A stretch of 64,000 bases of DNA from Spirosoma oryzicola (GTDB lineage Bacteria; Bacteroidota; Bacteroidia; Cytophagales; Spirosomataceae): NCBI RefSeq assembly GCF_021233055.1, contig NZ_CP089538.1, positions 4,356,501-4,420,500 of the forward strand. The letters are read 5' to 3'. Of the stretch, positions 1,154 through 3,910 are shown in pieces (within the stretch, counting starts at the first letter, position 1; the number at the start of each line of letters is the position of its first letter). The notes beneath the pieces were generated by a model. The model searched no databases. It saw only the letters and a list, made by a program, of their open reading frames with translations, and was not told where the DNA came from. The translations under genes and the position numbers were made by a program.

Positions 1154-1633
1154 TCATTCTTTCACTTCGGCAAATGGGATAGGCCGATTAACGCTCTCTT
1201 CCAGGGATATAAACGTTTCGGTGCGTTGAATACCAGCCACTTTTTGAATCTTGTCGTGCAATACTTCACGCAGATGCTGCGTGTCGCGGCAGACGATTTT
1301 GGCAAAAATGCTGTAGATACCCGTTGTGTAATGAACGTTAACTACCTCCGGAATTTTTTCCAGTTGTTCGGACACTTCACCATACAGTGAGCTTTTATCG
1401 AGGTAAATTCCCAGAAAGGCGCTAATGTCCCAACCCAGTTTGGCGTGATCGATCACCAGTTGCGACCCGCGAACGATACCCATCTGCTTTAACTTGTTCA
1501 TTCGAACGTGAACCGTACCTCCCGAAACAAAAATACGTTTACCGATTTCGGTGTAAGGCATGTTGGCGTCCTGCATTAATAAACTCAGTATTTTTAGATC
1601 AGTATTATCAATTTCTAAATTTTTCTCGGTCAT
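1154..1633 (-). CDS. Lrp/AsnC-family transcriptional regulator
   Basis: The product is 159 residues if started at the ATG at 1633; an upstream in-frame TTG at 1663 gives ten extra unconserved residues and is less likely. The N-terminal winged helix-turn-helix (about residues 6-55: DNTDLKILSLLMQDANMPYTEIGKRI followed by VSGGTVHVRMNKLKQMGIV) is followed by an AsnC/RAM ligand-binding domain (about 65-145). Lrp/AsnC proteins form octamers or dimers that sense amino acids and control amino-acid metabolism. The gene stands alone; it converges on nothing and faces away from the tRNA-like locus at 1808, with an AT-rich spacer between. The regulated genes cannot be read from the sequence. Confidence 0.9.
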   Translation of the reverse strand: MTEKNLEIDNTDLKILSLLMQDANMPYTEIGKRIFVSGGTVHVRMNKLKQMGIVRGSQLVIDHAKLGWDISAFLGIYLDKSSLYGEVSEQLEKIPEVVNVHYTTGIYSIFAKIVCRDTQHLREVLHDKIQKVAGIQRTETFISLEESVNRPIPFAEVKE

Positions 1634-1715: not shown

Positions 1716-1748
1716 TTTGCAATAGAGCAATAGACTGTATTATCTTTG
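1716..1748 (+). promoter_or_regulatory. Bacteroidota-type promoter for the tRNA-like RNA
   Basis: TTTG at 1716-1719, 21 nt, then TATCTTTG at 1741-1748 match the Bacteroidota primary sigma factor consensus (TTTG / TAnnTTTG). Transcription would begin near 1755 and run into the tRNA-like element at 1808, ending at the terminator at 2004-2041. Confidence 0.6.
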
Positions 1749-1807
1749 CATTGTCAAGTTGATCGAGCGGGGTCACACGCCGGTCTTCTTGATAACTTTT
1801 CTCACAC

Positions 1808-1965
1808 TGTAGGATGTCGAAATTGGCAGACGTGCCCTCCTGTCTCGGGGGTGGTGATAAAGGATAAACGCAGCATAATGCCGCCTGCAAAGGCGACTGG
1901 GGTTGACCACCAGAGTTGTACTGTGGCTAACTGCACCGTGGGCGGTTCGAGTCCCCCTCCTACAG
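1808..1965 (+). tRNA. Unusual tRNA-like RNA, Leu-type body with an 87-nt variable region
   Basis: The sequence folds with canonical tRNA spacing. Acceptor stem: TGTAGGA (1808-1814) with TCCTACA (1958-1964), extendable by C1807-G1965. TG at positions 8-9. D arm 1817-1833 with AAATTGGCAGA, typical of leucine tRNAs. Anticodon stem CCCTC (1835-1839) with GGGGG (1847-1851), loop CTGTCTC, T33 present, anticodon GTC (1842-1844). T arm: GGCGG (1941-1945), TTCGAGT, CCCCC (1953-1957), with one C-C mismatch. Between anticodon and T arm are about 87 nt (1852-1938) instead of the usual 12-20, closed by TGGTG (1852-1856) with CACCG (1934-1938) and holding two internal hairpins. GUC is an aspartate anticodon, Leu tRNAs never carry it, and U37 is abnormal. 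It could be a specialised tRNA-like RNA, an interrupted tRNA, or a tRNA pseudogene. CCA is not encoded. Confidence 0.55.
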
Positions 1966-2003
1966 CATTTGGTTTTTAGTTTGTTGATGAAGTGTAATTG
2001 AAC

Positions 2004-2041
2004 ACGCCGGCTCCCTGATGAGTCCGGCGTTTGTTTTTTTG
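2004..2041 (+). terminator. Rho-independent terminator of the tRNA-like RNA
   Basis: ACGCCGG (2004-2010) pairs with CCGGCGT (2024-2030), followed by TTGTTTTTTT. It ends the transcript from the 1716-1748 promoter and separates it from lepA. Confidence 0.75.
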
Positions 2042-2122: not shown

Positions 2123-3910
2123 GTGAAACATATCCGTAATTTTTGCATTATTGCCCATATCGATCACGGCAAAAGCACGCTAGCTGACCGACTGCTCGAA
2201 TTTACCAAGACTGTAGGGTCCCGCGATATGCAGGCTCAGTTGCTCGACGACATGGATCTGGAGCGCGAGCGGGGCATTACCATCAAGAGCCACGCCATTC
2301 AGATGGACTATATGTACAACGGTGAGTTGTACACACTGAACCTGATTGATACGCCCGGCCACGTCGATTTTAGCTACGAAGTGTCGCGATCCATTGCTGC
2401 CTGCGAGGGTGCACTGCTACTCGTTGATGCCTCACAGGGTACGGAAGCGCAAACCATTTCCAACCTCTACCTGGCGCTCAACAACGATCTGGTCATTATT
2501 CCTGTATTGAATAAGATTGATCTGCCCGGTGCCATGCCCGAAGAAATTAAGGATGAGATGGTCGATCTGCTGGGTTGTGATCGCAATGACATTATTCCGG
2601 CATCGGGTAAAGAAGGCATTGGTGTTCCAGAAATCCTGGCGGCCATCGTCGAACGGATTCCCCCACCAAAAGGCGATCCCAACGGTCCTTTGCAAGCGCT
2701 GATTTTCGACTCGCATTTCAACTCCTACCGAGGTATCGAAGTTATTTTCCGTGTCAAGAACGGCCGCATTCGCAAGGGTGATAAGGTAAAGTTCATGAAC
2801 ACCGGTAAAGAATACTTTGCTGATGAAATCGGAACGCTACGCCTGACCCAGGAACCCAAAGACGTTATCGAGTGTGGTGACGTAGGATACCTGATCTCGG
2901 GAATTAAGGTAGCCAAAGAAGTAAAGGTGGGTGATACCGTTACAACCATCGATAACCCCGCCAGTGCCGCCATTCAGGGTTTCTCGGAAGTGAAACCGAT
3001 GGTCTTTGCCGGTATCTATCCGGTAGAAACCAGCGAGTTTGAAGACCTACGCGACGCGATGGAAAAGCTGCAACTCAATGATGCAGCTCTGGTTTGGGAG
3101 CCTGAAACATCGGCGGCTTTGGGTTTCGGATTCCGGTGCGGCTTCCTGGGAATGCTCCACATGGAGATTGTACAGGAGCGGCTGGAACGCGAATTCAATA
3201 TGACCGTTATTACCACCGTACCGTCGGTGCGGTTTGAGGTATTGACAACCAAAGGTGAAGCTATTCAGGTGTCGGCACCCGCTGACATGCCCGAACCAAA
3301 CCTAATCGATTTCATTGAAGAACCGTTTATTCGGGCGCAGATCATCAGCAAGTCCGAGTACGTCGGTGGCATCATGAGTTTGTGCATGGACAAGCGAAGC
3401 ATTCTCAGAAATCAGGTTTACTTGACCGCCGACCGGGTAGAACTTCAGTTTGAAATGCCACTAGCCGAAGTTGTCTTTGACTTTTTCGACAAATTGAAGA
3501 CGATCTCTCGTGGCTACGCGTCACTTGATTACGAATTCATGGACAACCGCGAATCGGACATGGTGAAGCTGGATGTGATGCTCAACGGCGATAAAGTCGA
3601 TGCGTTATCGGCCATTGTCCACCGGTCGAAGTCGTACGAGTGGGGTAAAAAGCTCTGCGAAAAGCTTCGCGAACTGATTCCTCGTCAACAATTCGAAATT
3701 GCCATTCAGGCCGCCATCGGTCAGAAAATTATCGCCCGCGAAACGCTGAGCGCCCTTCGGAAAGACGTACTCGCGAAGTGTTACGGCGGTGATATTTCCC
3801 GGAAACGTAAACTGCTTGATAAGCAGAAGAAAGGAAAGAAACGGATGCGTCAGGTGGGTAACGTCGAAATCCCGCAGGAAGCATTTATGGCCGTCCTTAA
3901 GATTAATTAA
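2123..3910 (+). CDS. lepA: Elongation factor 4 (LepA), ribosome back-translocating GTPase
   Basis: LepA/EF4 is a membrane-associated translational GTPase that acts on stalled or mistranslocated ribosomes. I place the start at GTG 2123, giving 595 residues, the normal family length, beginning [18 protein letters not shown]. An upstream ATG at 2018 would lie inside the terminator of the preceding RNA and before the likely promoter, and adds 35 unrelated residues. G1 [10 protein letters not shown]2 [10 protein letters not shown]3 DTPGHVDF and G4 NKIDLP are intact; the EF-G-like domains and the LepA-specific C-terminal domain (ending [20 protein letters not shown]) follow. It is monocistronic, closed by a perfect palindromic terminator. 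Confidence 0.97.

Follow-up and report, generated by a model that had tools for sequence, protein, structure and literature searches.

A 64,000-nt stretch of Spirosoma oryzicola DNA (hereafter the window) contains a sequence that reads as a tRNA with GUC at the anticodon position and a very long variable region. What is this sequence, and what would it be for? A tRNA-like RNA was confirmed here as real and conserved, and it is an unrecognised RNA carried by many Bacteroidota. As to its role, we propose, with a probability of about 0.6, that it is a dedicated, probably non-decoding tRNA that serves as an RNA scaffold for asparagine synthesis.

Anatomy and comparative evidence for the structure

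The features of the locus are as follows (positions are those of the window).

1154-1633, minus strand: gene of an AsnC-like transcription regulator that diverges from the RNA gene (ORF 1154-1663 from TTG, likely ATG at 1633)
1716-1748, plus strand: Bacteroidota-type promoter (TTTG 1716-1719, N21, TATCTTTG 1741-1748)
1753-1793, plus strand: 5′ leader hairpin (z -3.6, 0/200 shuffles folding equally well, for the window sequence)
1808-1965, plus strand: tRNA-like RNA, 158 nt (131.9 bits with covariance model R1, which was itself built from this RNA and 11 others)
1808-1814/1958-1964, plus strand: acceptor stem, 7 bp
1817-1819/1831-1833, plus strand: D stem, 3 bp
1835-1839/1847-1851, plus strand: anticodon stem, 5 bp, with loop CTGTCTC
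1842-1844, plus strand: GUC at the anticodon position, within loop CUGUCUC, with U37
1852-1939, plus strand: structured variable domain, 88 nt, separating the anticodon arm from the T arm
1853-1856/1934-1937, plus strand: V stem, GGTG with CACC, 4 conserved pairs by comparative pair counts
1862-1868 facing 1927-1931, plus strand: internal loop of the variable domain, GGAUAAA facing CUAAC
1869-1873/1921-1925, plus strand: P3 stem, its start backed by comparative pair counts
1882-1895 and 1897-1913, plus strand: two apical hairpins of the minimum-energy fold
1940-1942 with 1944-1945/1953-1957, plus strand: T stem, with a bulged C at 1943
1965, plus strand: G73, read from the sequence
1973-1997, plus strand: conserved 25-nt trailer box, TTTTTAGTTTGTTGATGAAGTGTAA
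2000-2040, plus strand: intrinsic terminator (hairpin of -17.6 kcal/mol, z -3.8, then a T run)
2123-3910, plus strand: lepA (elongation factor 4), which follows the RNA at this locus (TIGR01393, 981 bits)

An initial annotation, made from the sequence alone, had described exact tRNA geometry. The four arms are indeed present, but the outermost D-stem pair is a non-standard U10 with U25 and the T stem carries the bulged C1943. GUC and U37 were found as described, and so was a leucine-type D arm: the D loop has 11 nt and is Leu-type, with CAG and no U after GG, and the best-scoring partner of the body in a simple alignment is the genome's own tRNA-Leu(UAG). The variable region, estimated at about 87 nt, measures 88 nt by coordinates. 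Its supposed 5-bp closing stem comes down to the four conserved pairs, and a second hairpin pairing CCAC with GTGG had to be given up, as same-genus members reading GTAG break the pairing and the minimum-energy fold gives CTGG/CCAG (1897-1900/1910-1913). The apical part of the domain folds with z -1.8 (11/200 shuffles as good). The RNA's own promoter lies where it had been placed; TTTG-N21-TATCTTTG fits the Bacteroidota-type consensus, and TTTG-N17-21-TAnnTTTG is found in 70 of 183 distinct member upstream regions, where 50 shuffled sets average 1 and never exceed 4. The terminator is likewise present, its hairpin beginning some 35 nt, not 40 nt, beyond the 3′ end of the RNA. The trailer box TTTTTAGTTTGTTGATGAAGTGTAA recurs 7-112 nt past the RNA in 16/211 downstream flanks, and is identical in 12 of them amid divergent surrounding DNA.

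The case for the structure rests on comparison and not on energy, because the single-sequence minimum-energy fold of the RNA is no better than that of shuffles (z 0.31). We tested 26 pairs in an alignment of 12 diverse members. Pairing holds in 97.8% of cells and falls to 53-64% if the partner is slid; 12 of the pairs are altered on both sides, which 0/500 shuffles match, and on the count of further pair types, the weakest of the measures, 8/500 do as well. An alignment of 92 distinct rows, fitted to the covariance model and including one short partial match, again gave 97.8% paired (53-62% when slid), with both-side change at 15/26 pairs (1/500 shuffles) and in 245 cells (0/500), and further pair types equalled by 36/500. 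Compensatory changes, proposed earlier as a check, appear in each of the six helices; the V stem alone reads GGTG/CACC, GATG/CATC, GGAG/CTCC, GGGG/CCCC, GAAG/CTTC or GAGG/CCTC. The internal loop GGAUAAA opposite CUAAC is kept in most members, the second pair of the stem beyond it fails in 37/91 rows, and the apical hairpin region is highly variable in length. T-stem bulges also occur in some other members. Members span 108-210 nt and their variable domains about 38-140 nt, the shortest (L038) ending in a GAAA tetraloop atop two pairs. The longest (L323 2450-2659, 210 nt) carries additional sequence in its variable domain.

The RNA has the four stems of a cloverleaf tRNA together with its core bases (U8, A14, A15-U48 and T54-A58 in 91/91). 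As in a class II tRNA the variable region has a stem, but the variable arm of such tRNAs has roughly 10-24 nt, against 88 nt here. The group I intron and tmRNA readings had been judged poor fits, and both judgements hold: the 88-nt extra domain sits in the variable region, as opposed to more than 200 nt in the anticodon loop, and a D stem and anticodon arm are present with no Rfam tmRNA match. The intron idea finds no backing in comparison either, as a compact 76-nt relative (below) simply lacks the domain and has the same kind of anticodon loop.

Distribution and genomic neighbourhood

The RNA gene escapes both annotation tools that were run. ARAGORN made no call at the window RNA, and Rfam release 15 gave no match above gathering score there. 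Two other outputs were set aside, namely a nearby Rfam AsrC match, which is antisense to lepA and below gathering score, and the single tRNA-Arg call in 48 loci (L039) by ARAGORN with introns, which was judged spurious. Titles and abstract openings from the literature, covering few subscription papers or preprints, contained no report of the RNA.

The search for the element in related genomes, another check put forward at the outset, returned a blastn match in 47/59 genomes, own genome counted. Within the genus the figure is 35/36 (own genome included), the sole exception being G025. A pattern search recovered 44 copies, but none of those in 6/48 loci. Using the covariance model, with a best E below 1e-19 defining RNA-positive genomes, the RNA was counted by hand in 212/291 sampled genomes of its own order, including a weak match in G086 (E 2.6e-20), and in 31/296 genomes of a phylum sample that overlaps the first in this order. 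Weaker matches of about 75-90 nt, whose length and score suggest ordinary class II tRNAs and of which few were inspected, were left uncounted, and four genomes of intermediate score (G047, G038, G271, G309; only G047 inspected) were set apart. The RNA also occurs in other orders of the same class. In the phylum sample, family f66 (2 genomes) is the only one outside the class to carry it, and families f25, f26 and f28-f30 of the class are without it. A genome-wide pattern scan gave at least 120 stretches; of the 80 listed, the covariance model confirmed 78, the two unconfirmed among these matches being actinobacterial. Confirmed records among the matches listed belong to Spirosoma, Dyadobacter, Hymenobacter, Pontibacter, Algoriphagus, Echinicola, Cyclobacterium, Chitinophaga, Pedobacter, Mucilaginibacter and Saprospiraceae, and the closest named relative among them is the Spirosoma luteum RNA (96.8%). 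Approximately 45 of 150 member loci, some of them overlapping, hold two to five copies. Plasmid and phage records gave no match at E 1e-5.

Several single loci stand somewhat apart. One member (L255 3131-3240, 121.5 bits) lies on a contig labelled as an Ignavibacteriales MAG, reflecting either wider spread or mis-binning. The compact 76-nt relative, in G047 (L180 1039-1114), is without the whole variable domain and keeps U1-A72, G2-C71, U3-A70, G73 and a loop CUAUCUC; no asnC-like ORF was found in its listed 1-kb flanks, and its genome has AsnA. Matches in G252, G260, G271, G306 and G309 score like this relative. Lastly, L093 163-263 (G000:C1:4201362-4201462) is a 101-nt tRNA-like sequence, with extra bases inserted close to the anticodon arm, which scores 41.6 bits to RF00005 and receives no ARAGORN call.

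The divergent gene upstream of the window RNA encodes a regulator that, within the Lrp family, appears to be nearest to AsnC. Its best PDB match is E. coli AsnC (2cg4, 116.6 bits; next 85.3), and its best NCBIfam match is AsnC PRK11179, at 161.8 bits under a cut-off of 227. A divergent AsnC-like homologue was found in 48/72 loci, or 43/64 distinct loci once eight repeated places had been removed by hand, where 90-229 bp separate the aligned ends, and in 46/78 named loci among the matches listed. In neither the 64 distinct nor the 78 named loci did such a neighbour take any other orientation. The flank read held no asnC in 21/64 and 32/78 loci respectively; some of these upstream flanks are shorter than 300 bp (7 of the 32 named loci). 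On the other side, lepA was dropped as a functional link, lepA-like sequence occurring in 5/150 member loci, many with flanks of only 1.5 kb.

Identity bases and co-occurring enzymes

Among 91 distinct members, U1-A72, G2-C71, U3-A70, G73, U35, C36 and C38 are invariant. Position 34 is G in 81, A in 8 and C in 2, and the full set of G73, G34, U35, C36 and C38 is thus present in 81/91. The counts for U35, C36 and C38 are limited to these 91 members because the genome-wide pattern fixes those bases. In 183 distinct sequences U1 is found in 182, and A72, G2, C71 and G73 in all; two show A3-U70, a compensatory change. One copy (L265) among 99 further members has A1. G73, G34, U35, C36 and C38 are described as the main aspartate identity elements (PMC9976931), and U1-A72 as the amidation signal (PMC9976931; PMC4206432). 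The pairs G1-C72 and G2-C71 are called conserved and crucial for bacterial aspartate identity, and G1-C72 and U20a are described as blocking amidation in tRNA-Asp (PMC9976931). With U1-A72 in 91/91, only G2-C71 of the two crucial pairs is present. From the base counts, therefore, the RNA combines the main aspartate loading set with the amidation signal and loses one aspartate-favouring pair. G10 is present in only 8/91. In its own genome, tRNA-Asn has U1-A72 and G73, and tRNA-Asp has G1-C72.

In the anticodon loop, U33 is kept in 76/91 members, and position 37 is U in 82, C in 7 and G in 2, never A. In decoding tRNAs U33 and a purine at 37 are near-universal. Since these are not kept and an ordinary tRNA-Asp(GUC) is present in the same genome, the RNA probably does not read codons. 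The initial annotation had suggested a specialised tRNA-like small RNA, or an unusual tRNA whose role is not decoding, and this suggestion is supported.

Eighty genomes, picked by hand and not at random among those of known RNA status, were scored for relevant enzymes, with gatB as the marker for GatCAB (40 RNA-positive, 36 RNA-negative, 4 intermediate). The gene was found in 40/40, 25/36 and 4/4, respectively (Fisher p 1e-4, shared ancestry ignored), and all 11 tested genomes without gatB are also without the RNA. AsnRS is over cut-off in 79/80, including every RNA-positive genome, and GlnRS in 43/80. Of genomes with both, gatB is present in 28/28 RNA-positive versus 4/15 RNA-negative (p 2e-7, ancestry ignored), the four being G025, G302 (with gatB only as a fusion to AspRS), G346 and G494. 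Given GlnRS and AsnRS, GatCAB looks spare in the 28 RNA-positive genomes. Least open to the objection of shared ancestry are the genomes of families f23 and f24 that lack RNA and gatB alike; in these families the two are co-present or co-absent in 10/10 tested genomes (17 sampled): G393, G412, G567, G323, G349 and G461 have both, and G318, G434, G333 and G427 neither.

AsnA and E. coli-type AsnB are scarce in genomes with the RNA. AsnA was found in 4/40 RNA-positive genomes (one just under cut-off), 7/36 RNA-negative and 2/4 intermediate; E. coli-type AsnB passes its cut-off in 0/40 versus 9/36, and one or the other is present in 4/40 versus 15/36. At least one AsnB-like protein passes the broad TIGR01536 cut-off in 33/40 RNA-positive genomes. 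A representative (L177) scores slightly higher against a polysaccharide-type amidotransferase; because that score is itself below the model's cut-off, some TIGR01536 matches may be real asparagine synthetases. Seven RNA-positive genomes (G000, G014, G059, G106, G223, G240 and G461), that of the window among them, have no AsnA or AsnB at three cut-offs, and all seven have GlnRS, AsnRS and gatB. AsnRS requires free asparagine.

Each RNA-positive genome has one AspRS over cut-off. We examined the AspRS site at which His presumably sets relaxed enzymes apart from strict ones. It is K, L or F, and never His, in the 25 of 40 RNA-positive genomes examined, and K, L, F or M in 8 examined genomes without gatB, where mischarging could therefore not be repaired; the row for G346 was left out of this alignment. 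Moreover, 3/291 genomes of the order (G302, G086 and G102) encode a complete GatB-AspRS fusion of about 1,110 aa (L221 2043-6770; L222 1635-6424; L241), apparently a transamidation enzyme in one piece; in G126 a fusion-type GatB is cut off by the contig end. A gatA-like gene directly precedes the fusion in G302 and G102, the two loci scanned. The AspRS part of all three complete fusions has His at the site. G302, G102 and G126 are without the RNA, the fusion loci of the first two included, and G086 has only its weak match. The fusion might have taken over from the RNA route at the protein level, though the numbers are small.

Proposed function and relation to known systems

We infer four biochemical steps: charging, amidation, release and AsnC switching. 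AspRS would recognise G73, G34-U35-C36, C38 and G2-C71 and load aspartate; GatCAB would then recognise U1-A72 and convert the bound aspartate to asparagine. In the third and weakest step, asparagine would be freed by hydrolysis or by a further factor and so supply AsnRS. Finally, the adjoining AsnC-like regulator would turn the RNA on at asparagine scarcity, much as E. coli AsnC switches asnA on when asparagine is scarce. Whether the RNA stands in for asparagine synthetase in much of Bacteroidota, under its own amino-acid-sensing regulator and with the extra domain serving product release or the docking of AspRS, GatCAB or AsnRS, is a more tentative proposal, to which we would give slightly less than even odds.

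The scaffold proposal draws on how little the aspartate set and amidation signal vary, on the signs that the RNA does not decode, on the company of gatB, including the joint absences in f23 and f24, on the divergent AsnC-like neighbour and on the scarcity of AsnA and E. coli-type AsnB. It also draws on the seven genomes without either synthetase whose AsnRS needs free asparagine, and on an AspRS site free of His. The fusions, which read His and of which two of three lie in genomes without the RNA, point weakly in the expected direction. Several findings count against it. The missing G1-C72 is called crucial for bacterial aspartate identity, and A34 or C34 in 10/91 and G10 in 8/91 make for a weaker aspartate set. 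A small D loop is described as a determinant for GatCAB-type enzymes, and the long, Leu-like loop here may tell against amidation. TIGR01536 proteins in 33/40 RNA-positive genomes, and AsnA in four, might make asparagine, and gatB is present in 25/36 RNA-negative genomes. Moreover, as tRNA-Asn has U1-A72, a relaxed AspRS could make asparagine on tRNA-Asn without the RNA. This could also explain the kept GatCAB, but would leave unaccounted for the bases of the RNA, the gene next to it and the genomes that lack both it and gatB.

The alternative that survives best, though we consider it unlikely, is that the charged and amidated RNA is a signal, of aspartate/asparagine or GatCAB state, or an asparagine donor to a lipid, peptide or wall precursor. 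The same bases and the same gatB co-occurrence speak for it, and a partner protein could dock on the structured variable domain; however, the asnC-like neighbour and the scarce synthetases point to biosynthesis, and in the loci listed no conserved ligase-like gene was noticed by eye beside the RNA. It is more unlikely still that the RNA accepts aspartate (or aspartate and glutamate) without amidation, for example as an AspRS sink or regulator, with GatCAB kept for tRNA-Asn under a relaxed AspRS and its link to the RNA a phylogenetic coincidence. U1 in 182/183 distinct sequences, although the genome's own tRNA-Asp has G1-C72, argues against this, as do the genomes of two families that lack RNA and gatB together and the 25 RNA-positive genomes without His at the AspRS site. 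On its side are the nearly invariant aspartate set, a tRNA-Asn with U1-A72, Fisher counts that ignore ancestry, and a relaxed-AspRS route shown in Bdellovibrio (PMC4206432).

A decoding tRNA-Asp, unusual in its long variable arm, would account for the GUC anticodon and for core bases kept in 91/91, but is very improbable in view of the loop at positions 33 and 37, the A34 and C34 variants, the T-stem bulges of some members, a locus with up to 5 copies and the ordinary tRNA-Asp. A decayed tRNA, the main rival in the initial annotation, or a chance resemblance would suit the silence of ARAGORN and Rfam, but is refuted by compensatory change, invariant bases and conservation across families, and its probability is negligible.

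GatCAB is reported to be kept beside AsnRS and GlnRS in 18 bacterial genera, Bacteroidetes included, for which asparagine synthesis on tRNA-Asn was proposed (PMC4206432). If the scaffold proposal is true, it explains this retention in Bacteroidota with both synthetases, some of them without a recognised asparagine synthetase; it also means that amino-acid biosynthesis has an RNA among its components, and provides a tRNA maintained for chemistry and not for decoding.

The nearest known system is tRNA-dependent asparagine synthesis by a non-discriminating AspRS and GatCAB, with which our proposal shares both enzymes, the U1-A72 signal and the replacement of AsnA/AsnB. There, however, the substrate is a decoding tRNA-Asn and the AspRS is necessarily relaxed, whereas a separate RNA with an aspartate anticodon would allow AspRS to stay strict and would not need to decode. 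The regulator recalls E. coli, where asnC is divergent from asnA; an AsnC-like gene is likewise divergent here, but its target would be an RNA and not a synthetase. Use outside translation has precedent in the Staphylococcus tRNA-Gly that serves the cell wall and the tRNA-Glu that serves tetrapyrrole synthesis. Those are class I tRNAs, and we know of no non-decoding or dual-role tRNA that has an 88-nt domain or serves free amino acid synthesis. With class II tRNAs (Leu, Ser, Tyr) the RNA shares a Leu-type D loop and an extended variable region with a closing stem; it differs in its domain of about 38-140 nt, its conserved internal loop, its aspartate-type bases and G73. Finally, tmRNA, about twice as long, also embeds a tRNA-like domain in a longer RNA, but a D stem and an anticodon arm set the RNA described here apart.
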